Assembly: GCA_964036155.1 (NCBI GenBank)
Contig: OZ038423.1
Span: forward strand, 56,869,249-56,933,248
Source of the DNA: Diploscapter coronatus
Lineage: Eukaryota; Nematoda; Chromadorea; Rhabditida; Rhabditidae
Length of the DNA: 64,000 nucleotides
Direction of reading: 5' to 3'
Below, piece after piece: positions 5,275 to 23,584 of this stretch. The stretch's first letter is position 1, and every line of letters starts with the position of its first letter. The position numbers were made by a program, and so were the translations under genes. The notes below the pieces were generated by a model. The model was given only the letters and a program-made list of their open reading frames with translations, was not told the DNA's origin and searched no databases.

Positions 5275-6551
5275 ATGCCGAAGGACAAGAAGAAAGAGGA
5301 GGTTACCGAGTTGGATCAGGTTGATCGCAACGTTGCCAGCTTCAACCAGATCACTGGGCTTTGTGAGTTATTCTAGTCAAATATATTCTTTAATATAATT
5401 CAATAATTCCTTAGGGGACATGACCCAGCTCACAAGATTGACACTGAGTCACAACAAGATCGTCAACGTGCCACCGAACATTGCTGATTTGGTCAATCTG
5501 CAGGTAAAATTCTCCTACAAAAAGAACTTAAATCAAATTCCTTCTCTCGCAAAGAATTTGAATTTCTAGATCCTCACCCTTTGGAATAACCAAATCGAAG
5601 AGCTTCCTTCTTCTATCTCCAGTCTGCCAAAACTGAGAATCCTGAACGTCGGAATGAATCGCTTGTCGATTCTTCCTCGTGGGTTCGGCTCGTTCCCATC
5701 GCTTGAAATCCTCGACCTCACCTACAACAATCTGTGCGAGAGAAGTCTGCCAGGCAACTTCTTCTTCATCCGTAAGTCTTGAATTATTATTCCGAAAGAC
5801 TATCTGAAATTTTTATACCGCCAAAGTTAGGTTAAGAAAAGCTGGGGAGCAATTGCTTTTCTATTTGTATCTTATTCGAGATTTCCAAGTTACAGTTAGA
5901 AATGAATAATTTTAGCTTCTGTTCTATCTTCAAATATTCACCTTGATATTCCAGAAACCCTCCGCGCTCTTTACTTGGGTGACAACGACTTCGAGATGCT
6001 ACCTGGCGACGTCGAGAATCTCGTTAATCTGCAGATTCTCGTGCTCAGAGACAACGATCTGCTTACGCTTCCAAGGGAAATCGGAAGACTCCACAAACTC
6101 AAAGAGCTCCATATCCAGGGCAATCGCTTGACGACTCTGCCTCCGGAGGTCGGAAATCTTGATCTAATCGGGCCTAAGCAGATCATGCGGATCGAGCGCA
6201 ACCCGTGGGTGCCTAGCGTTCAGGTAGACTTTCTTCTTGCATTAGCTTAATTTATTGAGTTTGATGGCAATTTATATTCTATTTCGATATTAGAACTCAA
6301 TAAGCGGAGTGACAAAAAGTACCGACCAACCAATACTCTATTTCAGGAACACTTCGACGCTGCTGGTGCGCCAGGAGTGATGGATTACGTCCGGAGTGAG
6401 AACTACAAGTACTTTTATGGAAGACAGGTACGGAGAGTTTGAGCCCAAAGAAGAAGAGTTAATTTAGGAAGTTGCCTCGACTCCCGTTCCACCGAAGCGA
6501 TCCAAGGACAAGAAAATCTCGAGGAAGAAGACGCAAGGACAGTGCGCTTAA
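5275..6551 (+). CDS. rsu-1: Ras suppressor protein 1 (RSU-1), leucine-rich repeat protein
   Basis: Six exons (5275-5362, 5415-5503, 5570-5771, 5955-6223, 6347-6427, 6468-6551) join in frame to 270 residues (human RSU1 about 277). All introns are GT-AG and 52-183 nt long. Repeated LxxLxLxxNxLxxLP units run from about residue 35 to 205, with signature stretches such as NKIVNVPPNIADLVNLQ, GMNRLSILPRGFGS, LTYNNL and ELHIQGNRLTTLPPE. The family C-terminal cap follows (NPWVP...YVRSENYKYFYGRQ), and the end is a basic KRSKDKKISRKK tail. RSU1 binds PINCH/UNC-97 in the ILK-PINCH-parvin complex at integrin adhesions, so a cytosolic, muscle or adhesion-site role is expected. The start is the first ATG after a TTTAAG acceptor-like site. 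The 3' end faces the collagen gene about 1 kb away. Confidence 0.95.
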
Positions 6552-7552: not shown

Positions 7553-8975
7553 TCATCGTTGTTTCAAACAGACTTGGCATCGGGATACTCGGTCTTTCAG
7601 ACCGCCGGCCTTCAGCGTTTGCGACATTGGCTTGCGGAATTGCTTGTCCTGGAAATATTTGTTTCCCAATCTCATTATTTTAGGCGATAAAATTTCGATG
7701 ATTTTTCTACTTTCAACGGTAAAAATGTCGCGGAGAACAAGAAGTAGTGAAATGTGTTTTACTCCGACTCTCCCTCAAACTAATCCTCTCGCCTATCCCT
7801 AACGATAAATTCCCCATCATTTGACCAACTTTTTAGACTATCCTATTCTCAGCAATATCTTCCTTCCCAACACAAACCTGTTCAACGACGGCCATCCAGA
7901 ATCCGTGATTGGTGGCGTAGTAGTTGCACGTGCCGCGGCCGTGGCACTCGATGAACGGTACGGCGCGGAAGTGCTCCATGCACGAACCGGGCGATTGCAG
8001 GTTCTGACCCGTTCCCTCACCGCCCGCAGCAGTGTGCTGAAGTATTCATCATAGGGCTATATCATTTGGTTTGATGATGACTTTAACATCATCTTCCAGC
8101 CCACATATCATCCGCCGTTAATAAATCTAGTTTTATCGGGTTTATGGTTAAATTTCTTCTTCTTCATTGTTTTCGAAATAAAAAATCTCGTACCATGACG
8201 AACGAGTATCCTTGCCAGAGTGGGCCCCAGCCTTGTGGACAGTTGGGGATGGAGATGTCTTGCGAGTGAACCGCCATGATCTGAGTCGGAACCTCACACA
8301 CTGCGCATCGCGAGATGTAGGGTCGGATCGCGGAGCCAGTCACCTAAATCAGTTTATCATCTGGGCAGCTATTGTGGAGACACAAGAAACTATAAATCTC
8401 TCCGTTCTCACTAATTCGACCACATCTTTTATCTTGAATTGTGTTCATTCTTATTTTATAATTTTATCGAAAAAGCTAACCGGATTCATCATGGGCGTCA
8501 TCGGTTCTTCTGTCGATAGCCAGAATGAGTAGTCGGATCGAGACGCCACGTTGCACACCGAGTTGATGTTGCAGAACATGAACGGCATCGTGTTGAACTT
8601 GGACAGGCACGAGCCGGGCTGGCCTAAAATTGATTTTTAGTTAGATCAAATCAGGTGAAACATGAGCAACTCATCAGGAATGTGAATTGAGACGGGTCTT
8701 ATCGCACTACTATCTTTGCTACCAATACGCAGCTCTACAGTCATGGAATCAGCGTTCCGCTTTGATGCCACGATAACGCTTCTTCCCTTACAAAAATCCA
8801 AACTTACCAAGATCTTGTCCGCTTGACCGTCCGTTGCCTTGGACGTAGAGGAGCGAGTATCCAGTCCAGAGTGGCTGAGTTCCAGTGGGGCATTGTGGCA
8901 CTTCGGTGGTCTGCGAGTGCTTCGTGAACGTGAATCCACGGCTCGGCGCCCATCCACCAGGTCCTCCGGGGAATC
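7553..8975 (-). other. emb-9: Collagen IV NC1 domain (exons 70-74)
   Basis: Exons 8808-8975, 8481-8623, 8194-8343, 7878-8036 and 7553-7648 encode the end of the helix and the full NC1 trimerisation domain, two homologous C4 subdomains. All twelve conserved cysteines are visible: [53 protein letters not shown]. The methionine cluster in [12 protein letters not shown] and the lysine in TLKAG sit where the peroxidasin-made sulfilimine cross-link forms in other animals, so that bond is probably possible here. The protein ends [10 protein letters not shown]. Confidence 0.93.
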
Positions 8976-11900
8976 ATAAAATCTGATGGATTAGTACCGG
9001 AAATTTAGTTCCTGAGCAGAATGCTAATGATGAAACTTGACGAAATGGCATCCTTTATTTTCCCATTTTTTACTTCTGACTATAGAATTTCGTAATTCCA
9101 TGTTCCATTCATCATTTAGTAGCTCTCAATCAAAAGGACAAAAATCAGCTGTTGCCGACTTTCTTGTTCTATAAAATCGCTGTTCTCAAAAATCTAAATG
9201 ACTTAACTGGCGGCCCATGATTGCCTGCAGAACCCGTTCTTCCGGGAACGCCGACCGGTCGTGAAAATATTTAATTAGGAAGAAAGTTTATTTCAATGAC
9301 TTATCTGGTTCTCCCGTCATTCCGGCCAATCCAGGGGTGCCTTAAATTTGGTATGGATTTTGTTACTGCTTTAAGAATTCTATGAATCGGTTAAAAGATA
9401 CCAGGAATTCCAGGTTGACCCTCGCGTCCCTAAACAGAATTTTATAAATCATTTGAAGAACTTATACAAGAACGCGAGAGCAAATTCTTGACATCAAGAT
9501 TCCCCTCACGTCCTATGAATCTCAAGAAATACTTACAGGAAGTCCAGCGAAACCTTCTTTGCCTGGTGGGCCCATTCTGCTTAAAAATAAACGATTAGGA
9601 TCATATTCTCTGGCGATTCGAATTATTTAAATTCTTCGAAATACTTATCTGGTTCGCCGGGCTCACCAGGATAGCCCTTTTCGCCTTGGGGACCGGGGGG
9701 TCATGAAACGAAAATATTATCTAACTTTTTAAAGTCTACAACTTTACCTGATGTACCATCGGGATTAGGTTGATGAATTCCAGGTGGGGCGGGAATACCT
9801 TAACAAGAAGAATTGAGATCTGCTCATAACCATGTCTAAAGTTTAAGTTTACCAGGAAGGCCTTGGTCACCGGACTGACCCTAAATTAAAAAAAATTGCA
9901 TGAAGACCAGCTTTTTGAATAAAATGTTTACCTTATAACCGTCCAAACCGGGCAGACCGTCATCACCTCGCATTCCTTTTCTTCCAGGAGTTCCAGGCGT
10001 ACCCTTAAACATTTGCTCAAATTTAGGTTTCTAAAAAATCGTCTATTTAAAAAAAAAATATATTCACGGGCAATCCATCGATACCACGGAGACCCTGAAT
10101 TTGAAATTTAATTAGAAGAAAACATCTAAAAACTCTTACAACAGGGCCATCCTCGCCGCAGTCACCTTCCAAGCCTGGCTGAAAGGAGAATATTTAGATT
10201 GATAAAGCAATAAGTTTATGGATGAATACCGTTCCGGGCAAACCATCAGCTCCAGGGACTCCTAAATTTAGATTATCAATGAATTAAAAAATATAATTTA
10301 AAGGTTTGAAATCATTTAGGCTATCCTGATTAAAAATCTACCTGGGGCTCCAGCAGCACCCGATTGGCCGTGTCCGTCCTGAAATGGAATAGTTCTCGAA
10401 CTTTGCTCAATTTAATTCGTACCTGTCCAGGTAATCCTGAAATTTTTGGTCGTAAATGAATATCATCATTTTGCAATTATGAAATGATGGTATTCGTTTA
10501 TAACCTGGCAGGCCGTCGTCACCGCGCCCACCATTTAATCCGGGCATTCTAAAGTGTTAATTTGGCTCCCAAAAGATCTTAATTTCATCAGGAACTCACC
10601 CATCGGGGCCCTGAGGACCGTCAATTCCAGGCTCGCCGTTATTTCCCTGAAATATACAAATTATACTAGCATTTTTGGACCTAAAATGTCGAATTTATGA
10701 TCAGAAGACCTACCTTCTCGCCCGTAGGGCCAGGATAGCCCGTCAAGCCTTCGTCGCCCTTCATTCCCGGGAGTCCTGGCATGCTTAAAACGGGATGATT
10801 ATGATTGATTTTTAAAATAGTTTTATTCAAATTTTAACCAGTGGCAAGCAAAAGTTTGGAAAGTTTCTCGATCTAAATAATTTCCTTCGACCTAATAATC
10901 ATTATTCAATTCATCGAACTTTTAGCATAATGACATGATAGCATGTGCTCAGCTGGTGTGCAGAATTTCAGAAGAATCATGCTTATGAAAGTAACTGAAA
11001 CATGAATGAAAAAATTATGTGCACTTCTAAACCTTTGCACTCCACTGTTTCACAACTATATCATAATAGATTTAAGACTTATCAGGCTGGCCCGGATAAC
11101 CGTTAATTCCCGCATCGCCAGGCACTCCACGCTCGCCATTTTCACCATTCCTGCCTGGTGGACCCTAGATTTTAAAAGTAGTAAGAAGGAATCTAGTTTA
11201 TCGAAGTCTTACCTGAAGTCCAGGAAGACCGTCTCTGCCCTAAAATTTAATTCAAGTAGCTAAGTTTGATTTAAAATGAAGAAAAATAATTTACGGTTGG
11301 TCCATCGTCACCGCAGTCACCTAAACTTGTAAGAATTATTTAGCTAATAATAGGAGCTACAGGAAATTACCTTCGGGACCTGGATCACCTGCCATCCCAG
11401 GGGGTCTTAAAATAGGGTCAATATTATTTCAATTGAATTTTCGGCTATAAATTTATTATTTTAAAATGTTAGAAGCTTATCTGGCATTCCGGGCTCGCCG
11501 AATTCACCATCCAAGCCAGGCAGGCCGTTCGGCCCATCCTCACCACACTCGCCATCGACTCCAGGAATTCCGTTTTCACCTGGTCCACCGTTCAATCTGC
11601 AATTAAAATGCATTGGATCTTAAGTAGGAATTTTAAATCTAAAATATTTCAATATTTTCACTTTTATAGTTCGCTTGAAAGGTGCACGGTTTCGCATTTC
11701 TGAACGAACGGAAATTATCGGGGATCGCTATGAAAAGATGAAACCTTGCAATCATACAATTTTTTTAAACTCCCTTTACAAATTACGATATTTCAAACTA
11801 AATACTATAATTATTACCCAGGGAAACCGATCGTGCCATCCTCACCGTTCAAGCCTGGCTGACCCTAAAATCAATTAACATTGAAAAGATGACCTTCCTT

Positions 11901-14900
11901 TTTAATTTCAGAGTAGAAGAGAAATCATACGTCGGGCCCTGGAAGACCATCTCTACCGTCATAGCCTTAAATTAAGTTTATTAGGTTCTGGGTTTGTTCA
12001 ATTCCCACAAACCTGGTTCACCCGGCATTCCATTCGAACCCGGAGTTCCTAAGATAAACATTGTTTGTTAATTAAACCTTAAATTAAAAACCTGGCAATC
12101 CCATTCTTCCAGGCTCGCCGTCTCTACCCGGGAAACCATCGTCACCTCGTTGTCCCTGAATTTCGATCGTTTTTGGGCTCACAAGGAATGCTCAACATAT
12201 GAAGCGCTTAATTCCGGAAACGGCCCATATCATCTGGTAGCCCAGGCCGTGGGCTGCTCAACGGTACCAATCTTACCGGCCCATACGGGCTTTACGCTGT
12301 AAACGACGGACGGAAAGTTTCCATGGCTCAGGCCTGCTGTCGCACATCACTTACACCGTTGTTTCTTCGCTATTTCTCGATGGATTTCGAAAATTCTTTC
12401 TGTAATAAGTTTGAATTAGTCGTACAGTAATGAGAAAAATATAAGTAATCCAAAATCTGCAAATTTCAGACACGAAATCGGGCCTTTTAACTATTGCCAA
12501 TTATCCAAATGTAGCAATGCAAGTTTAAAGGCATTCAATGAGAAAAATAAATCATCCTTTAGGGTTTTCGGGTGCGTATAATTCGAAAATAACAGTAAAT
12601 TTATCGGAAAAACCACCTGTTATAGCTTTTAGCGTAACTCTCATCGGTTTCCGCCGAAATTATCAAGTCTTGCACTCGGAATTTTGAGAAAGACTTACAT
12701 TTACAAAATATTAATAAAAAATGGGCATATGAGAAAATTCGAATGAAGTAAAGATTTATTGGATTAACTAGTTAATGACGATGAAAGATGGAGCAGTGGA
12801 AACACATATACTTTTCGCAGTATGAACATTTGTTGAAGACTTTGCGGCCACAATTGGAAACTTCACAAATGAAAATGTGAGAGAAACCAAAACAAAACTC
12901 TATCGGAGTCTCAAAGGGAGGAGGATGAACAGTAGAAAATCCTGCCTTGTACCAAGAGTACAGAAGAAAGTTTTTGTATCTGGGGCATTTGAACTGAAAA
13001 TATACCCAATCAAGAAGATGGAGGAGATTGTCACGAACAGAAATAGTAAAATCAATATGTTGCAATCGGATTTTGTCCGAGGCCCTACGAAAGAAATGCT
13101 TCAGTGTTCTGTTATAGAATACGTCAGCTGGCTGGAGGATTGGAGTGGATCCCTTCGGGAGTTGATAAATGATCAGGTTCGACTTCTTGACCTCCGGAAT
13201 TTGCATCATTCGAGCGAAGCCGGTCCAGGCGTCAATTATGAGACAGCTGTCTTTTCCCACGTTTGGAAGAAAATCCTAAATTAAACAAATGAATAAAAGA
13301 ACAAATATAGATAATTTTACCGTTTTGAGCCATTCAATAGCGATCGGAGTATCCATCTTGCCGCTTTTCGTCCAATAGATCGAAAGATTCTGAATAGTCA
13401 AACATGCATTAATCATTTCATAAATGAAGGAATACGAAAAAGTTCGTATAGAACTATTAGTTGATACTAGTGATTCACTGTGACTAATTATGATATTATC
13501 TACCTGAAGTATTTCTCATTAATTCTTACGGTAAATTTCTTGCATTCGGATGAGAAGTTCATCGGCACTTTTCCATTTTGTTCATGAAGAACAACAGACA
13601 TTTTCTCAGGGAGTCGGCCTGCAGCACACAGAACGACGTGCAGAGTAAGGGAATGTGTTATGGCACTTTGACGTTGAACTCTTCGAATGACCTTTTTCGA
13701 ATTTTTTATGGTCATTGTTCTTCCAGAAGTGATTTCGAGCTGCAATCCCATCTGGTCTGCATTGTAAACCTGTAATATGAAGTTACTTATTTCGATTTCA
13801 AAGAAATTATTTGTAGAAATTTAGGTAACTCATTTTCTAGAATTAATGATCAATAATTCAGAACGAATATCTTTGCTAAAATACACATGAGATATGAATA
13901 CCATAAACGGATTGATAACAATTTTAATTTTACTACTTTAAACTAATCTGATATGGTTTTGATAAGTGAAATGAGTAGGCATTTTTCCTTTATAATATTT
14001 AATTTTTATCTGGATAAATTATATTCTTAAACTTTCAGATATTTATTTTTTACCTTATCAGGTGAAAACTGTTGGATTTCAAGGATTTTCGAGGCTCGAA
14101 ATTCGTCAATCGATTCTTCAGTATCTTTAGCCTACAATTAAAAATCATTTTGAAGAACATATTTTAAGAAAAAATTTATCGATTCTATTTACATCTCTCC
14201 TATTATTAAATGGAGAGAAAGTCTACATTCAAAAATTACTGTTAGTCTTCTCTGCGTCTTGGGTCATGGGACATAATGGGGCCATATGGGCCCATGACCC
14301 TAGTTTCGGGTCATGGCCTTTCAATGTGCCCATATGGGTCCATCACCCGAGACTATTTATGGGTCGAAATGGCTCAGAATGGGCCCACATGGCCTTATTA
14401 TGTCCCATGACCCAAGACGCAGAGTTACCATCCCGATTTGAATTGATTGAATACCTGAAGCAGAGTCTTGTCAGAAACGGTTTTGTCGATGTGCCTATCT
14501 CCAATTCCGTATTTCTGCTGGAAATAATGGATCCAACCCCTGCTGGCCTGTATTATCAAATAAATCGAATTAGAATAGGCTCCATTTCAGAATAACTAGG
14601 TTAAGGAATAATTAGAAATGGCTGAAATTGAGTAATCCTTATCTCAACACTACGGATATAAAATGCGTACTTGAAATTCTGTTAATCCCATTCTTTCGGC
14701 AATTTCCATGGCCTCGATTCGCATATCCTCTTCATGGAAAACAAGTAGATGCTCATCCCAATCCTAAAATAAAAAGTATTTCATTACAAAATTTATCTAC
14801 ATATTGGTATTTTTTAGTCTACCACAATAAAGAATTTTTACAAATTGCTTATCTATGTCATCAATAAATAAGCAAATCAATCATCATCTAAATTTCAAAA

Positions 14901-17900
14901 GTACCTGCACACTTTCCCATAGAGCTTTCTTGAGTTTGTCGTACTCTATTTTGGACGAGACAGAGCCGCGTTGAACAAATTTTCGCATCCTTAATTGTCT
15001 CTCTTTATTTGAAAGATGAATCAATCAAACCTGGCGAGTTGGGTTCTGCCGTTACTTCCTGTGTGTACTTGTTTCCAGCGATGGTGGATCCGATCTAGAG
15101 ACCAACCCAGGTAATCGCGATTGTACACTATTTCGAACATTGTGTCAATGTCGTAAGTGACTGCACTTCTTGTTGTTGATTCATCAGAGCTGTGATATTC
15201 CTCATCGGTCAACACTTGTTCGGCATCGGAATCGATATTCAGCGAATCAAGACTTTGTTCAATACGCCTTTCCTCCTCTGCTTGAAGCATATCTGAAAAT
15301 TTATTTTATTAAAACAAAAACTTCAGCTAAATTACTATGGATTCGATTTAGAAGCTTCGTTTCGGAACGATCACTCGTCTGTTTGTTGAGTTCGGCTACC
15401 TGGAGAAGCAATTTTTCGAATGCACCAGCGTTCGAAGGAATGGAATCAGATAGTGTTGAGTCCATTCTAGAATTTGTTCTTTCATTTTTACGAAGAAAAC
15501 TAACAATTTCATAATTTCGAAACACAATAACGAAATGATTCGGATTTAATTAGAAAATGATAAATATTGAAATGTGGATTCATTTTAGCATGCAAATATA
15601 CAAAACATGGAATTAAAATAGTAAAAAAAAATTCGATATAATTAAAAAAATAAGAAATCCAATTGGATTTTTCGATAAAAAAATAATGCAAGACTTGATA
15701 ATTTCGGCGGAAACCGATGAGAGTTACGCTAAAAGCTATAACAGGTGGTTTTTCCGATAAATTTACTGTTATTTTCGAATTATACGCACCCGAAAACCCT
15801 AAAGGATGATTTATTTTTCTCATTGAATGCCTTTAAACTTGCATTGCTACATTTGGATAATTGGCAATAGTTAAAAGGCCCGATTTCGTGTCTGAAATTT
15901 GCAGATTTTGGATTACTTATATTTTTCTCATTACTGTACGACTAATTCAAACTTATTACAGAAAGAATTTTCGAAATCCATCGAGAAATAGCGAAGAAAC
16001 AACGGTGTAAGTGATGTGCGACAGCAGGCCTGAGCCATGGAAACTTTCCGTCCGTCGTTTACAGCGTAAAGCCCGTATGGGCCGGTAAGATTGGTACCGT
16101 TGAGCAGCCCACGGCCTGGGCTACCAGATGATATGGGCCGTTTCCGGAATTAAGCGCTTCATATGTTGAGCATTCCTTGTCAGAAAACAAACTAATGCCT
16201 AAGAATGGTAGTTCCGGGATATTTGTACCAAAAATTACTAGGAGGATATCCTTTCATTATTGGTACAAATCTCGCTTAACCCCTACTAGAATTCTCATTT
16301 TAAGATCAATTTGGCAACAAATTACGATTGAAGACTAAAGTTATCCACTTTCAATAAACCCACCGGAAGTCCAGGCAGCCCGCCCAAACCGACGGCTCCG
16401 TCCTCGCCACACTCGCCGTCCTGTCCATTGAATCCGACGTCACCTTGCGGGCCTGGTAAGCCGGGCTCACCCATGAGTCCTGGGAATCTTAAAACTGTCC
16501 GGATTAGCGTTAGAACTATAATTGATGAAAATCATAGACGTAAGAGGTTCTCTATTTCGATTCCCATTCATTTTGAAAAACACTATAACCTCGTCCGCCC
16601 CTGATTTAGCATGCTAATCACGAAAATCCTTATCTGGCAGTCCATCCATGCCGCGTTCGCCTGTCGTACCCGGATATCCATCTTGGCCAGGCTAAATTGG
16701 CATAGTAATTGTACTTACTTCAGTAAAATGTTATTTAAGTTTGATGAATCCTCAGTTTTTGCACACTTAACCAATTAAAAATTTATAAACACAAGTCCAC
16801 GAACCGTTCCCGGTGCTCCTCGAGGCCCAACTGGGCCTTGGAAGCCCTTGGGGCCCATTCGTCCTGGTATACCTAAATTAAGAAGTAGATTTTATATTAG
16901 AATTTAAACATAGTGAAAATAGTCTTTTTTCCCAAGAAAAATTTTACCTGCCGGACCAGGTGGATTCTTCTCGATGTTGAATGGCCGTTGACCATCGGGA
17001 CCCGGACGACCTTAAATTATCGATTTATTTGAGTCGATAATAAAATTATTACCTCTCTGACCCGGCAGACCTATAATTGAATTCATAGTCGGTTTAAATT
17101 TAGTTAAAAGTAAAATTTAAATCGACTATGAATTCGCACCTGGAAGACCGTCATCTCCTCGCATTCCCCTTCCTCCCTAAAGTTAAATAATTAGACTTTT
17201 CAAGTTATATTTTTATCAGATCAAACAAATCAATTAAAACTCACTGGTATGCCAGGTTGTCCAGGAATCGAATCACCAACGGGTCCGGGAATACCCTGAA
17301 TTAAAATATCTTCAACCTGTTTCTCCTTCAAACTATACCGGCATTCCTAGCATGCCATCGCGACCTCGCTTGCCGTCGATACCAGGAAGTCCCTTCTCGC
17401 CTCGGTAACCAGGCAAGCCGTCCGGACCTTAATTTTTTAATTGAAAAAATTTAAAGTCTTGAGGTTTTACCTGGTGGACCCTGCAAGCCTGGCATTCCAT
17501 CTCGGCCTGGGCCTCTTAAAATATATCAATATCTTCAAGATTTATGAGTTTGATGAAGAAAATATTGGCTTGATCGATAATTTCTGGTACATTTTGGCAT
17601 TAGAATAGCAAAAAATTCAGCAATTATCTTTCAAACCGATATTTTCTAAAGTATGATTGAGATAGTCCTTATCTGGATATCCCGGCTCTCCTCTAGAGCC
17701 TTTCTCTCCACTGATTCCGGCTGGATTCTCCATCGGACCGACGACCTCACCAGGTTCACCCTTCAGGCCTTGGTATCTTAAAATTAGGCAAATAACTTTG
17801 ATTTATTGTCATTTAGAACTGTGCGCAGTAGCATTAAAATATATTGGGTTGCACACGATTCATATAATAATGAAAAGTCCTTATCTGGGATTCCGGGGAG

Positions 17901-20900
17901 GCCTGGGGATCTTAAAATTGAATGATTAGTAGGGTGTTTGTTGACTTAAGAATCATCACTTTTAGAGGCTATGAGTAAATAAAACGAAATCTATGATGTT
18001 TTACCCTCTAAAGGTGCTCTGAACGGGTTTGAAACTTATCTGGCAAACCAGAAGGACCTTCCAAGCCCGGTTGTCCTGGAATTCCGTTCGGACCACAATC
18101 GCCTAAATAGGATTGATTTTTTGAATCAAATAGAACTTTTGACAAATTTTCGACACAAAACGAGAATGTGAAGATCAGCTTATGAAATCGTTAAATCACA
18201 CAAATTTGTTTACCAGAATCGCCATCCGGGCCTGGCGGACCTTTGTATCCATCGGGACTAAAATTTTTTGTCTTTAGATTTTTGAATTCACGTAAATTTT
18301 ACCCAGGGCTTCCCGCGTCACCCACGGCTCCTGGCAGGCCATCTGGACAATAGCCACAGTCGTCACCTCTTGGGCCGATGTCACCGGGGGCACCTAAGAC
18401 AAAACTATGCGTGTGTGTGTGTGTGATTTAATTGATTTGATTTAAGGTTTCAATCCAACACATGGTCTTCATCATTTAGTTTTACTAGAAAAAACGCAGC
18501 CAAGTGTCAGTACGGGAAAGTTTATTGTCATTAACATTTTTCCTGGGCCATTAATATTTCAATAATTTTCATGGTTTTTACCAGGAATTCCGTCGATACC
18601 AATTCGACCTGGTTCGCCGGGTTCACCCTTAAATAATTCGTCTAAATTAGACGAGGAGATAAAACATACGGGCAGGCCAGACAAGCCATCGGGACCTTGT
18701 TTCTGCGTCGCGGCGGTTCCGGGGAACCTTGAAAAAAACATTAGTTAAATTAAATTGACGATTTAGATCAAATTTACCCTTTGGCGCCGCTTGGGCCAGG
18801 ATCTCCGATCATTCCCTGAATTTTTAAGTGGTGATTTAAAAAAAAAAAGAATCAAATATATTAAAAATTCATTGACAAACTCACAGGTTGACCCGGAAAT
18901 CCGTCCTTTCCACTCTAAAATAAGTTATTTTTGTTCTAGATCTATGAAATTTTAATTACCTGGCCATCAGCGCCTGGCGGGCCTTGGATATCGTAGCCAG
19001 GAAGGCCCTAAATTTAATTTTTAGATTCCTTAAAGAATTATCAAATCGTACAGCCTCTCCATCAGGACCACAGTCACCATCTTCGCCGGGAATTCCAGGC
19101 TCGCTTAAAAGTTTCAGGTCATTTTTAGGTTTAAAAACGTTAAAATTTCATAAAGTAGGCTCAAGTCTGGTTTTAAGTGCAGTTTTTGGTCTTGAAAATT
19201 TGATAGAAACTTATCTGCGAATCCGGGGTGGCCATCATCACCTCTTTCGCCCTTCTGCGAGTAGCCGGGCAATCCATCCAAACCTGGTGGGCCTGGCATG
19301 CCTGAATTTTCACTGATTAGACCGTGAAATTTATCAAATTTGGTCATATTTGAACTAGAGAGAATACTTCAGCAACGTTAGGTAAAATAAGTTGAAATGT
19401 TTGCCTGGGGGTCCGGGAGGTCTGTAATTTAGATATTCAGAGGTTAAATGTGATGTGTTAAGTTACCCTCTGGGTCCCATCGCACCGTAGAAACCGTCTT
19501 TGCCTAAAATTTTGAGGTGAGCACTTGAGATCGGAGTTCAATTCAAGTAGATTCAATCACCAACCTGCTTCACCCTTGGGGCCAGGAGCTCCGTCGAATC
19601 CTTGAGTTCCTCTGGGGCCAGACTCGCCTTTGCCCTCGCCGAATGGGCCCTGTTCACCGCAGTCACCTTCCAAACCCTGCAAGAAATTAAATTTACATGA
19701 ATCAATTGTTCAGATATAAGAGTTTATTTGAGGCCTGTATCATCAAGACTTGGACTTAGAATTTTCATCCCTGGACTTGAACTTGTAAGTCCAATCCTAA
19801 CCTCTCAGGCATACAAGCCAGATTCAGAAATTGAAACTTTAGGTCTTGGCACAAGTATTGTCTATCTATCAAATTATAAATTGATATCAGTACTGGATCA
19901 AGTCTTAGTTTTTAAATGTCAGATTTCCGAACTCCATCCAGGCCAGATAACCTAAAGATTTACTTACTTGGGGACCATCATAGCCAGGTTCACCCGCAGC
20001 TCCTTTCACTCCTGGAATTCCAGGAACACCGGACAAGCCTAAAACGAGACGATTCTTTTGTTGAAATAAAAATATGAAATCAGATTTGAAAAAAATATAT
20101 TCCTGAAAACTCATCTGGTTCTCCTTGGTCACCCTTGGGTCCGAAACTTCCTGACAGACCGTCCTTGCCGCGTTTGCCTCTTTCACCCGCGTCTCCCGGA
20201 TCTCCCTTTTGGCTAAAATTGTTTTTAGGTAAAAAGTAAGTGGACTTTTCAAGGGATTTGGATTTGTCACGATTTTGAAGCTAACGAAATTTGATGCTTG
20301 GCTCCGAGATAAAATAAATGCTATCTTTGCATAATATTTGTTTCGAATCATGAAAATCCAAATTTCCAACTTCATCATCAAACTCACCCTTTGATTCCTG
20401 GATAACCCGGTTGGCCGTCGACGCTTAAAATTTAACATTGTTAAGGACTTCTTTAGATATGCAATTTTGCTTTTCTTAGCTCATCAGAAAGATGGTCTTC
20501 GTGATATTATATTTAAAAAAAAAAAATGCATATCTGGTAAGCCTGGCGGTCCGGTCGCTCCGTCCCTGCCTTTCTCTCCCTTGACACCTAAATTAAATTG
20601 CTTTCGAGGCTTTTTTTAATATAAAAAGACCTCCATCTCCGGGTGGGCCTTGAAGAACTTGCGTCTCACGTCCACGCTGCTCCCATTTCCGGTCGTCGTA
20701 ACCTGGGTCACCTAAAACCGAGAATTCAATACTGTTTTAGTTGAGAAAAAGTCGATATTCACGAAAAATGGCGAAGATCAATCTTCAATTAAAATGAATT
20801 GATTGGTAGCTATTTTTAGACCTAGGATTTGGTGTTAGTTTTAGCATTTTGAATACGAATTTAGAACTTATCTGGTGGACCCATCGGACCCTGAAATTTA

Positions 20901-23584
20901 TGCAATTTAGTTCAATTTATTTAAACAACTACTTACAGGAAGTCCCTTTTCTCCCTTCATACCAGGAGTGCGCACGCCCATTCGACCTTTCTCACCAGGG
21001 GGACCTCAAAATCAAATTTCTGAGGCGGTTCTAAATTTGAAACGAATACCAGGAAATCCGGGCGGACCAAGCGGTCCATTGTCACCCTTTGCTCTAAAAA
21101 CAAGCAATTATGCCATGGTTCATCTTTAGAAACGTTTAAACTCACCCCTTCAAGCCGCTTTGACCAGGAATACCCGGTTGTCCCTTAAATTGATGATAAT
21201 GATGATTAGATGATTTTTAAGGGTTTGAGGATGCATAATCTAATAAGAAGTTAGTCTTATGTTTCGGAATTTCTTTTTATCGAAAAATTTCGCGTACGGG
21301 AATTCCATCTTGGCCTGGGTCACCCTGAGAGCCCTTAATTCCTGGCGAATTCTGGCCTCCGACACCGGGGTCTCCTCTGGAAATTGGTTTTATCTAAATT
21401 TTCTATAATTGGAGCAAACCTAGGTCCTTTGTATCCGGGGTTTCCGGGCGGGCCTGGGGGTCGTGAAACGAAATGATTAGTTTGACAATGAATAATTTAA
21501 GTGAGGTTTTAAACTTTTAGATAAAAGATGACTAGGTTTTTTTATCATAATAAGATGCGGAGAAACTATTATTGAGTTTTTTTTAATTAAAATTTTTAAA
21601 AACATTTCTTTCAGAATAGCTTGAATAACTCATCTGGAGGGCCTGCCAACCCGGGCAAACCGGGCATTCCCTGAAAGTTATTTGTTAAGAATATATGATT
21701 TTTAATCGATATATAGATTTTTTGTTTAACTTAGGTTATTTAGTTTGAATTTTGAAATAAGCTCACAAGGCAGAAATCTATCAAATTGGGAATGTTTTGG
21801 TCCTTTATATTTGCAAATTTGCTTAGCTTATGTCCTCTAAATCAAAGCACATAATTATCCGCTCGATGCTGACTCATTATTAGTTCATTCTTCCTCTCGC
21901 TCTTAAGCACCCCTTGGATTGTTACAATGTGCAGAGAACGAGAAAAATTAAAGAATGGAGCTCTTTGGATAAAGAGGGGCTGTAACACCTCTGAATGCCT
22001 GAGAAAAAAGTTTTGGAAGCTAGGGAAAAAGTGGGTCAATATGTGCCAGGAACACTGTTTCGACGTTGATCTCGAAGGTTTGAGCGCCGTTAAATCATTA
22101 TTTCTCGCCTTTCATTAGAGTGCAGCTTCTTGCAACAATCGGTCGAAAGCTGATAAAAAGCTAGAGATTAATCGATAAGCAGAAAAAATAGAGGATTTAT
22201 GAGCCAGGCAATATTATTTCAAGCTAATGATAATGCATATGGTAAGGATTGAAGATCAAGAATTGATGATTTTAAGTAAAAAATCGATAAAAATATTGTT
22301 TTCCGAATTTAGCCAACTCACATCGGTCCCATTACAACCGGGGATACCTTCTTCGCCCTAAAATTAAATCATTCGAGTTTATTTTGAATTACAGAAGAAT
22401 GATCTTTCAAAGGCCTTGCCTTCAATCCGGGTAATCCGTCAAGTCCTGAAATTTAATAGATGATTTTTAATTCCTTGATAAATTAAAAACGAACAAATGG
22501 AAAATCAACTTATCTGGGAGACCAGGATGTCCAGGGGCGCTTAAAACAATATTATTAGATTTATAGAGCACTTAAAGATGGCCTTCAATTGAAAGGAATT
22601 AAAAAAAATATTTTCGCCCTTCAATCAAAGCTCAAAAATCAAATTTTAAGGCTTATCTGGAAGTCCGCGATCTCCGCGCACTCCTTTCGGGCCCATATCA
22701 CCGAAATCACCTTCCGCACCCTAAATTAGTAATTAAATTGAGTAATAATCCTTAGATAAATTTACAGTCATTCCAGCGGCGCCAGGATTGCCTTCTGGGC
22801 CATCTTCACCTGGGGCACCTAAATTTGGGTACTTTATTTGGATGATCAGAGAGAATAGGTCAATTAGAGCACGTGTGGAAGATTTGCTTCGAAATATGAC
22901 TGTCTTAGGTGATATTTTGGGTTCGAAGATTTAAATTGTATTATGATCTCTTGTAGATGATCCACAGTTTTTACCTGGATGACCCATTTCACCGGGAAAA
23001 CCTTGACCGCCCTAAAAAAATCGAGATTTTATTGATTCAGAATTCAATAATTATCTCACCCGTTCTCCTTTCGTTCCGGGACAAACACATGGCGGCGCAC
23101 AACCTTTGCAAGCGACCGCTGCATCGGCGAACCTTCTGGAATAATGATTTCTTCTTTTCATAAAATCTATTGCAGTATACAAGTGACTTTTGGATTAATT
23201 AACTCGGAACAAGATGGGAATTTCCTTTTGTTTAAATGGCACCTCTTTCAACAGAATTGATCCTGAAGTGTAATTTTTCTAGATGTGCTGGCAGTGAAAG
23301 AAAAAGCTACTGAACTACCAATACTCCTTACTCTTGCTGTAGCTATAGAAGATCAATATGATTGCAGAAATGATAATGAAATATTTCAGATCCAACTCAA
23401 AGAGCAATCCTGCATCTAGAACAAGGCTATTCAGAGTCGAGACTTTGATTTCATTCAAAATCCCAAAATCGAACAGTTCAGCTTTCAGAGTCATCAAAGA
23501 TTCTTACAGGTTAGCGCTCTCGAAGGATAGCAGACATAGGGCTGCGAGAGCGATGGAGGCATAATATGTGGTCTTATGCCTCAT
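7553..23584 (-). CDS. emb-9: Collagen type IV alpha1-type chain
   Basis: Seventy-four exons join without a frame break to 1,445 codons. A signal peptide ([19 protein letters not shown]...) is followed by a cysteine-bearing 7S region ([19 protein letters not shown]). Then come about 1,150 residues of Gly-X-Y with type IV interruptions ([25 protein letters not shown]) and a C-terminal NC1 domain of about 229 residues. NC1 features such as [11 protein letters not shown] and FCNINSVCN match alpha1 rather than alpha2 chains, hence the EMB-9 assignment. The product would be the major basement-membrane chain, pairing with an alpha2 chain into 2:1 trimers. The predicted chain is shorter than the roughly 1,650-1,760 residues usual for alpha1. 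I found no missed exon, but cannot exclude one. Intron 44 carries a 4,000-bp transposon. About 17 introns have non-GT-AG ends; see the exon lists and intron entries. Confidence 0.93.
8976..9206 (-). other. emb-9: Anomalous intron 69 at the helix/NC1 junction (TT-AT?)
   Basis: Exon 69 ends CCGCCAG before TTAAGT, and exon 70 opens GATTCCCCGGAGGACC after TTTTAT. Only CCAG joined to GATTC keeps glycine and frame. The nearby AG acceptor (CATCAG at the 3' end) leads into an in-frame TGA. Neither terminus is canonical under any in-frame join I could build. Confidence 0.6.
9261..9304 (-). other. emb-9: Non-canonical intron 68 (AT-AC, 44 nt)
   Basis: Donor CCAG|ATAAGT, acceptor TTTCAC|GA, which restores GGA. 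A GT-AG alternative (GATAA|GT to GGAAG|A) is in frame but would replace the first six residues of exon 69 and break the triplet register there. Confidence 0.6.
11407..11480 (-). other. emb-9: Non-canonical intron 49 (AT-AA)
   Basis: A 74-nt intron. Donor CCAG|ATAAGC, acceptor TTTTAA|GA. The intron interior near the donor holds no GT. Confidence 0.8.
12181..12674 (+). repeat. Left terminal inverted repeat (494 bp)
   Basis: Identical by eye to the reverse complement of 15687-16180. The outer 170 bp are GC-richer, with short internal palindromes such as GCCCAGGCCGTGGGC. The inner part is AT-rich. Confidence 0.95.
12772..15525 (-). CDS. Pogo/DDE_1-type transposase, intact
   Basis: Nine exons (15336-15525, 15031-15292, 14905-14989, 14671-14763, 14455-14547, 14054-14131, 13530-13769, 13321-13389, 12772-13275) join in frame to 537 residues; all introns are GT-AG. 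The middle part resembles the CENP-B/pogo DNA-binding helix-turn-helix ([10 protein letters not shown] then [14 protein letters not shown]). The catalytic core shows VYNADQMGL (first Asp), [10 protein letters not shown] (second Asp) and PILQPADV (third Asp, 35 residues later), a DD35D triad. The C terminus carries a Cys/His cluster ([19 protein letters not shown]), probably a zinc-binding module. Such enzymes cut and paste their element by binding the inverted repeats. An internal start at residue 21 ([11 protein letters not shown]) is also possible. No stop or frameshift was seen, so the gene looks functional. Confidence 0.88.
14251..14423. repeat. Nested 173-bp palindromic MITE-like element
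   Basis: Arms 14251-14294 and 14380-14423 (44 bp) are inverted copies with about three mismatches, starting TCTGCGTCTTGGGTCATGGG. The centre is also GGGTCATGG/CCCATATGGG-rich and partly self-complementary. It lies wholly within transposase intron 5 (14132-14454), so it does not interrupt coding. Its ends differ from the host element's ends, so it is probably a separate non-autonomous family that inserted there. Confidence 0.75.
15687..16180 (-). repeat. Right terminal inverted repeat (494 bp)
   Basis: Exact inverted copy of 12181-12674. Its inner edge lies about 160 bp upstream of the transposase start, so it probably supplies the transposase promoter. Confidence 0.95.
16489..16633 (-). other. 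emb-9: Non-canonical intron 43 (AT-AA)
   Basis: Donor CCAG|ATAAGG, acceptor TTTTAA|GA. A GT upstream in the exon (CCGG|GTACGA) would still need a non-AG acceptor to stay in frame. Confidence 0.8.
17071..17139 (-). other. Hairpin intron 39 (mirtron-like)
   Basis: A 69-nt GT-AG intron of emb-9. Arms 17113-17135 and 17079-17101 pair over 23 positions with a single A/C mismatch, leaving an 11-nt loop. The stem starts 4 nt after the 5' splice site and stops 8 nt before the 3' splice site. This is the geometry of a mirtron, whose spliced and debranched intron folds into a Dicer substrate. The stem is AT-rich apart from its CGACTATG part. No expression evidence is available here. Confidence 0.5.
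17516..17672 (-). other. emb-9: Non-canonical intron 35 (AT-AA)
   Basis: Donor CCAG|ATAAGG, acceptor TTTTAA|GA, with the same architecture as introns 34 and 43. Confidence 0.8.
17778..17884 (-). other. emb-9: Non-canonical intron 34 (AT-AA)
   Basis: Donor CCAG|ATAAGG, acceptor TTTTAA|GA. No GT lies within a plausible distance. G joins GA to give glycine. Confidence 0.8.
18411..18425. repeat. (GT)n microsatellite
   Basis: Fifteen bases of alternating G and T in collagen intron 30. No function inferred. Confidence 0.9.
20425..20533 (-). other. emb-9: Non-canonical intron 17 (AT-AA)
   Basis: Donor CCAG|ATATGC, acceptor TTTTAA|GC. No GT occurs near the donor, and the joined glycine codon requires these exact ends. 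Confidence 0.78.
21463..21633 (-). other. emb-9: Non-canonical intron 9 (AT-AC, possibly AT-AG)
   Basis: Donor CCAG|ATGAGT, acceptor TTTCAC|GA. An in-frame AG nine bases further in (CCCCCAG|GC) is an alternative acceptor. The AT donor is needed either way to keep the glycine register. Confidence 0.7.
22541..22656 (-). other. emb-9: Non-canonical intron 5 (AT-AA)
   Basis: Donor CCAG|ATAAGC, acceptor TTTTAA|GC. Reading through the donor meets TAA within four codons and no usable GT is near. Only this cut restores G-GC (glycine) in the Gly-X-Y register. Confidence 0.8.

Follow-up and report, generated by a model that had tools for sequence, protein, structure and literature searches.

Which machinery could remove introns that begin with AT from a type IV collagen gene of the nematode Diploscapter coronatus, and are such introns peculiar to that one gene? 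We addressed this question in a window of 64,000 nucleotides (the whole stretch of DNA that was analysed). The window lies on C2, one of two chromosome-size contigs (C1 and C2, 87.7 and 82.0 Mb) that, together with a 13.4-kb mitochondrial contig, make up the genome. About 170 Mb in two divergent haplotypes, with 2n = 2, fits Diploscapter; two chromosomes and 5.7% SNV are described for D. coronatus (PMC5483258). C1 and C2 hold allelic copies of the genes that we compared, and the NC1 region of the window gene is 96% identical on C1. The nematode SL1 leader has 269 exact genomic copies, and the nine mitochondrial genes that we placed follow the C. elegans order.

A collagen IV gene and its introns

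The C-terminal NC1 domain of the window gene, g1, shares 64-65% identity with its closest matches, collagen alpha-1/5(IV) chains, in a protein search whose 19 matches included no nematode collagen IV. The gene model places a collagen triple helix upstream of NC1. Its reading frame is open and dN/dS between the alleles is ~0.1, so that the pseudogene envisaged by an earlier note on this DNA, to be recognised by stops or frameshifts, is not what we find. Among the 75 predicted introns, 56 are GT-AG, 2 are GC-AG and the remaining 17 have other ends (hereafter odd introns): 10 AT-AA, 3 AT-AG, 2 AT-AC, 1 GT-AT and 1 TT-AT. In the following list, a slash within a sequence marks a junction, and the upper coordinate of each intron is its donor.

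7553..23584, minus strand: type IV collagen gene g1, predicted coding sequence (1416 amino acids, 75 introns; short exons are possibly absent from the model)
22541..22656, minus strand: intron 5, AT-AA, CCAG/ATAAGC..TGTTTTAA/GCG; identical ends in the C1 allele
22446..22513, minus strand: intron 6, AT-AG, CCAG/ATAAGT..AATTTCAG/GAC; weak GT alternative upstream
21463..21633, minus strand: intron 9, AT-AC, CCAG/ATGAGT..CGTTTCAC/GAC
20712..20871, minus strand: intron 15, AT-AG, CCAG/ATAAGT..GGTTTTAG/GTG; weak GT alternative upstream
20425..20533, minus strand: intron 17, AT-AA, CCAG/ATATGC..AATTTTAA/GCG
20039..20114, minus strand: intron 19, AT-AG, CCAG/ATGAGT..CGTTTTAG/GCT; ATAAG in the C1 allele; weak GT alternative upstream
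19105..19214, minus strand: intron 24, AT-AA, GCAG/ATAAGT..ACTTTTAA/GCG
17912..18039, minus strand: intron 33, AT-AA, CCAG/ATAAGT..AATTTTAA/GAT
17778..17884, minus strand: intron 34, AT-AA, CCAG/ATAAGG..AATTTTAA/GAT
17516..17672, minus strand: intron 36, AT-AA, CCAG/ATAAGG..TATTTTAA/GAG
16489..16633, minus strand: intron 44, AT-AA, CCAG/ATAAGG..AGTTTTAA/GAT
11407..11480, minus strand: intron 51, AT-AA, CCAG/ATAAGC..TATTTTAA/GAC
10785..11082, minus strand: intron 55, AT-AA, CCTG/ATAAGT..CGTTTTAA/GCA
9703..9747, minus strand: intron 66, GT-AT, TCAG/GTAAAG..CGTTTCAT/GAC; donor set manually next to an interruption of the Gly-X-Y repeat, the Viterbi donor being shifted
9581..9648, minus strand: intron 67, AT-AA, CCAG/ATAAGT..ATTTTTAA/GCA; one of two Viterbi runs took the +5 GT and a later AG
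9261..9304, minus strand: intron 70, AT-AC, CCAG/ATAAGT..ATTTTCAC/GAC
8976..9206, minus strand: intron 71, TT-AT, CCAG/TTAAGT..GATTTTAT/GAT; lies between the final helical exon and NC1, added manually

All fifteen AT donors described in the earlier note are present in the sequence contexts it gave, and the span it reported (9261-22656) is exactly that of these introns. Its total of 73 introns becomes 75 here, with some intron numbers off by one or two. Describing the introns as AT-initiated captured their 5' ends correctly and overlooked their 3' ends, of which 12 of 15 are not AG (ten AA, two AC). A class defined by AT alone is also incomplete, as it misses the GT-AT (9747-9703) and TT-AT (9206-8976) introns; since these are present too, the AT introns appear as a subset of introns with NT-AN ends. 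A 4-kb element (12169-16192) occupies one collagen intron of the window. Its terminal inverted repeats are 506 bp long (99%), and inspection by eye shows a transposase-like ORF in it; the C1 allele of this intron is 207 nt long and element-free.

The note had described these introns in one gene; the same intron classes occur in five further collagen genes. A second gene, g2, has 9 AT-AA, 1 AT-AC, 1 AT-AG and 3 GT-AT among its called introns.

C1:18454178-18479560, minus strand: collagen gene g2 (85 called introns; allele at C2:17.43 Mb)

In four additional collagen genes, 7/23, 2/16, 3/15 and 3/15 called introns are odd; because these four genes were picked by a match to CCAGATAAGTTT and are not a random sample, their share of odd introns is biased upward. 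Over the six genes, 46 of 229 called introns depart from the U2-type combination of a GT or GC start and an AG end, with the next exon beginning with G (AT-AA 24, GT-AT 7, AT-AC 6, AT-AG 5, TT-AT 2, TT-AG 2); five artefact calls were dropped from this count and two doubtful rows (GT-AA and TT-AT, with other exon starts) were left out. The collagen gene at C1:27.59 Mb (locus L054, 546-2214) is itself finely divided, with 23 called introns (one a likely artefact) in 495 nt of coding sequence and exons with a median of 18 nt and a minimum of 6 nt.

Outside the collagens, the comparison gene was Prp8, the single long gene that we aligned (91% identity to a human template over 1265 residues). Canonical ends were found in 35 of its 36 called introns (26/26 in the first piece, one of them GC-AG, and 9/10 in the second), the remaining one being an alignment gap in a variable loop. 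The difference between collagen and Prp8 introns is significant (Fisher p = 7e-4; two doubtful rows included, 35 Prp8 introns). Five introns of the LRR gene at 5280-6550 of the window are GT-AG by eye.

Genome-wide, CCAGATAAG alone shows no surplus (768 copies vs 855 for the reversed control). Outside the CCAG context A+1 is not in excess either (A 10, T 11, G 14, C 6 in 41 CAG rows, among the 100 of 375 matches listed). We inspected 16 of the 22 further C1 places with CCAGATAAGTTT among the 100 of 126 matches listed: four coincide with an intron called in a collagen gene, and at the other 12 we found no collagen model and no clear coding context. Outside U1 genes, CCAGATAAGTTT is commoner than the perfect consensus CCAGGTAAGTTT among the matches to CCAGNTAAGTTT that were listed (100 of 126); by eye, the C1 rows hold at least 32 of the former and at least 8 of the latter, and 10 of these 32 are in the two large collagen genes.

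Placement of the introns

Since collagen has a glycine at every third residue, introns could be placed with a nine-phase Viterbi model. Besides GT/GC-AG introns, the model could use a second, penalised class whose donor and acceptor were unrestricted; a preceding version with free donors and strongly favoured AG acceptors misplaced the AT-AA introns and was replaced. Two hand edits were made in g1, where the donor of the GT-AT intron was corrected and the TT-AT intron was added. With AT nowhere specified, the penalised free-class introns of g1 fell on AT donors in 11 of 12 cases in one run and 15 of 16 in another, and the single exception in each run was the GT-AT intron with a shifted donor. 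Free placement yields AT-A(A/C/G) in both g1 and g2, and in either allele. Among the counted odd introns, T+2 and A-2 are constant partly because a filter imposes them; five calls that did not fit look like artefacts.

Admitting the free class raised the g1 score from 1116.3 (GT/GC-AG only) to 1329.6. Restriction to GT/GC-AG costs 213 score units in g1 and 205 in g2 (where the canonical-only score is 1198.1), even with Gly-X-Y interruptions allowed. An AT-AN class alone, scoring 1318.6 (g1) and 1381.9 (g2), regains nearly all of the lost score in g1 and most of it in g2. When the first and last bases of the 15 g1 AT introns were replaced by G in silico, only the shifted GT-AT free call was left; the same replacement in g2 left two artefact free calls. 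Removing flank scoring left 9 AT-AA and 2 AT-AC introns in g1 and 8 AT-AA and 1 AT-AC in g2, plus single odd calls. The AT-AG class disappears from g1 once donor-flank scoring is removed, which means that the AT-AG calls rest on donor similarity; for the seven AT-AG and TT-AG rows among the 46, donor letters are the sole support.

Could the odd introns be of the ordinary GT-AG kind, with a GT close by serving as donor, at the cost of small insertions or deletions in the protein? The earlier note had found no nearby in-frame GT for ten of them, which stands for six AT-AA introns without a GT at +5 and fails for the three AT-AG introns (donors 22513, 20871 and 20114), where the frame permits a weak upstream GT that costs one or two Gly-X-Y triplets. 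It had also seen a GT four bases later, giving a small insertion, and such a site is indeed available to 4 of the 10 AT-AA introns of g1 and to 9/9 in g2. Over the six genes, a +5 GT with an AAG acceptor is in frame for 17 of 24 AT-AA introns and turns the glycine into two residues. Yet this leaves 7 of 24 AT-AA introns, six of them in g1, without the required GT; none of the six AT-AC introns has an AG at the 3' junction; the +5 sites (for example ATAA/GTTTTT) pair poorly with U1 whereas CCAG/ATAAGTTT is nearly perfect; and the score losses of 213 and 205 units weigh against any canonical-only model. We therefore consider splicing at nearby GT sites unlikely.

Donor strength and the splicing machinery

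The A+1 donors read ATAAG, ATGAG or ATATG and do not fit (A/G)TATCCTT, the U12-type donor consensus. Of their 11 positions other than +1, 9.86 are complementary to U1, vs 6.44 of 11 for GT/GC-AG introns (p ~8e-19), an excess that spans -4 to -1 and +2 to +8. The view that these donors are not of U12 type and resemble U2-type sites was thus well founded: they lack ATATCC and are near-perfect U1 complements except at +1. The combination of AT start, AC end and U2-like donor accounts for 6 of the 46 odd introns, the main class being AT-AA.

A separate spliceosome, such as a U12-type relic, or a variant U1 might nevertheless handle the odd introns. AT-AN and GT-AN are known U12-type classes, as described in PMC8280824, and the 5' end is divergent in 6 of the 37 U1-like genes in the genome, tandem arrays accounting for five of the six. 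Against a separate spliceosome stand the donors without ATATCC and the absence of U12 snRNA from our genome search, which was run without a positive control; nematodes are moreover reported to have lost all U12-type snRNAs, according to PMC13326754. Against a variant U1, the 5' end ACUUAUCUG, which would pair with A+1, occurs in 0 of the 37 U1-like genes, so that a U1 variant pairing with AUAAG is ruled out among them. Both forms of this explanation appear quite unlikely to us.

The U1 5' end is canonical (ACUUACCUG) in 31 of the 37 genes. The five divergent genes in tandem arrays carry ACUUACAUGG, ACUUACUUGG and ACUAACCUUG, and the sixth is single-copy with the 5' end ACUUACCGUC; the six belong to loci L035 and L036 (C1:33.56 Mb and C2:31.57 Mb) and L027. 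The U5 loop (GCCUUUUAC) is canonical in the four copies that we read out of 47 listed. For U2AF65, each haplotype has a single clear locus with several exons that fits the matches; another locus (L075), whose C-terminal match is good and which was considered as a possible U2AF65 duplication like that of Fritillaria, is by eye an SPF45-like G-patch/UHM gene.

The U6 genes have a peculiarity of their own. All four full-length copies (L040-L043; seven matches in all, three partial) contain a 54-nt GT-AG intron within the ACAGAGA box, with the junctions ACAGA/GTAAGTT..TTTGCAG/GAAGATTAGC.

C2:73993324: full-length U6 snRNA gene with intron
C2:74187623: full-length U6 snRNA gene with intron
C1:79304777: full-length U6 snRNA gene with intron
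C1:79099896: full-length U6 snRNA gene with intron

We found no exact genomic copy of the uninterrupted 19-mer ACAGAGAAGATTAGCATGG, and the box reads as canonical after predicted splicing. U6 would then need to be spliced by a machine that U6 itself helps to build. U6 introns are known in fungi, fission yeast included; we found no report of one in an animal in the open-access literature.

Intron ends, their alleles and a possible route

The first and last bases of the collagen introns are coupled. Among 224 kept introns (two doubtful ones included), G+1 is combined with G-1 in 176, T-1 in 7 and A-1 in 1; A+1 with A in 24, C in 6 and G in 5; and T+1 with T in 3 and G in 2. A+1 is strongly associated with a non-G last base (Fisher p ~1.7e-24), and among introns with non-G last bases, T as opposed to A or C at -1 depends on whether +1 is A or G (p ~6e-7). 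Watson-Crick A-T or G-C terminal combinations are absent from the 224 introns. The exon side also differs: in the six collagen genes, exons after non-AG acceptors start with GA (31) or GC (7) and never with GT (0/38), vs 34 GT starts among 88 exons that follow an AG acceptor in a matching setting (p = 5e-7).

Comparison of the haplotypes bears on how the odd introns arose. Every comparable intron position is common to both (67/67 in g1, 85/85 in g2), and we found no presence/absence polymorphism between the haplotypes, two apparent cases being a model artefact and a transposon. The end letters of odd introns are kept in 16/16 allele pairs compared in g1 (the TT-AT intron lies outside the comparison) and in 17/17 in g2, three artefact or doubtful calls included; the last intron of g2 differs between alleles, being GT-AG on C1 and GT-AT on C2. 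With intron interiors 93.2% identical between alleles and dN/dS ~0.1, the collagen genes look functional and the odd ends look as if held by selection.

These data also bear on a possible recent origin of the odd introns by copying of a single mobile element with odd ends. The non-canonical introns of Eurytemora look recent (PMC5714493), introners with weak splice sites are named in a tunicate study (PMC13326754), and the collagen genes examined here are very intron-dense. Against this origin, all compared positions are common to both haplotypes, and BLAST among the g1 and g2 introns below 4 kb detected nothing shared beyond alleles and seven short weak matches. A mobile-element origin is accordingly disfavoured, and we regard it as very unlikely.

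Cutting one base later would turn the AT-AA introns into TA-AG introns with a normal acceptor (TTTTAAG), and a model of this kind beats the canonical-only model (1199.9 vs 1116.3 in g1, 1280.6 vs 1198.1 in g2). It scores below the AT-AN model in both genes, however, and puts Asp or Glu in the glycine slot at every AT-AA intron, a pattern (Gly-X-Y-(D/E)-X-Y-Gly) seen elsewhere 0 times in g1 (349 triplets) and once in g2 (366 triplets); as it also leaves AT-AC, GT-AT and TT-AT unexplained, it seems highly improbable. A-to-I editing before splicing, which at A+1 and A-1 would give canonical ends to the 24 AT-AA introns among the 46, is scarcely credible, since the AT-AC, GT-AT, TT-AT and TT-AG introns (17/46) would stay unexplained and the base before the donor A is a G, which A-to-I editing enzymes disfavour.

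The best reading is therefore that these are predicted U2-type introns with relaxed NT-AN ends that are enriched in collagen genes. Strong U1 pairing combined with a non-Watson-Crick terminal pair suggests that the U2-type spliceosome probably removes the predicted odd introns of g1. Splicing at these sites, the identity of the spliceosome and the geometry of the pairing are inferred here from genomic sequence. A mismatch at +1 would be tolerated because the rest of the donor, CCAG/NUAAGUUU, pairs almost perfectly with U1. After the first step, the first and last intron bases may form a non-Watson-Crick pair for exon ligation. Such pairing of the terminal bases, with G-G and A-C isosteric, is described in PMC13326754. 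Against our reading, it has been argued that the terminal pair leaves U2-type splicing less freedom than U12-type splicing (PMC2831892). Collagens would be favoured because a split glycine codon after proline supplies CCAG before and G after the intron; as this fixes the exon sequence at most junctions, four pairs with U1 are available before the intron begins. We propose that GT-AG introns could drift to AT-AG or GT-AT, and that a second change would then rescue them (AT-AA, AT-AC, TT-AT). Candidate intermediates of such a drift, AT-AG and GT-AT, are present among the called introns.

Relation to known systems and significance

U2-type AT-AC introns share with those described here GT-like letters from +3 to +6. 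They likewise combine A+1 with a non-G last base and the major spliceosome (probable in our case), as reported for human SCN4A intron 21 (PMC2831892); they differ in that the main class here is AT-AA, accompanied by AT-AG, TT-AT, TT-AG and GT-AT, and that odd introns make up about a fifth of the introns in the collagen genes examined. The CENATAC-dependent U12-type AT-AN introns (as described in PMC8280824) resemble ours in a free last base after A+1, with T+2 and A-2 kept; here, in contrast, the ATATCC donor is lacking and U12 was not found in the genome search.

Like the collagen genes, the copepod Eurytemora affinis, as presented in PMC5714493, has a high share of odd donors (there GA and GG) with an obligate AG before them and A at +3; its +2 position varies, its acceptors are near canonical and the phenomenon is likely genome-wide. 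In that system G+1 is kept, +2 is A or G and the acceptor is AG, whereas in the collagen introns +1 varies, T+2 and A-2 are found in 46/46 (after filtering), +1 and -1 covary, and the single long non-collagen gene aligned is canonical. Features in common are also seen with Fritillaria borealis, for which PMC13326754 describes a canonical U1 5' end, no U12, relaxation of both ends and a terminal-pair rule. According to the same source, 95% of its introns are non-GT/AG, AG/AC and AG/AT are commonest and U2AF is duplicated; in D. coronatus, one U2AF65 gene per haplotype fits the matches, and the NT-AN ends are found in collagens. In the open-access literature we came upon neither AT-AA or NT-AN introns of nematodes nor odd intron ends of Diploscapter.

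A further possibility, which we put forward tentatively and with more doubt than confidence, is that the major spliceosome reads a second splice-site code in collagens, in which NT...AN introns sit in split glycine codons and terminal pairing defines the ends. If this is true, ends that match (A with A or C, T with T, G with G or T) might serve as keys, and such keys could order many tiny exons, away from the GT- and AG-like sites in Gly-Pro-Pro exons. The 46 predicted odd introns in six genes, beside 176 ordinary ones, form a natural set that samples several end combinations. The host is probably culturable and related to C. elegans, and the terminal-pair rule would be directly testable in it. 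Where annotation pipelines demand GT-AG, errors in the collagen gene models of such genomes are likely. If RNA confirms these junctions, ordinary splicing would have greater flexibility in collagen genes than had been assumed, and our results suggest that a single gene family could accumulate relaxed ends without change in most U1 genes.
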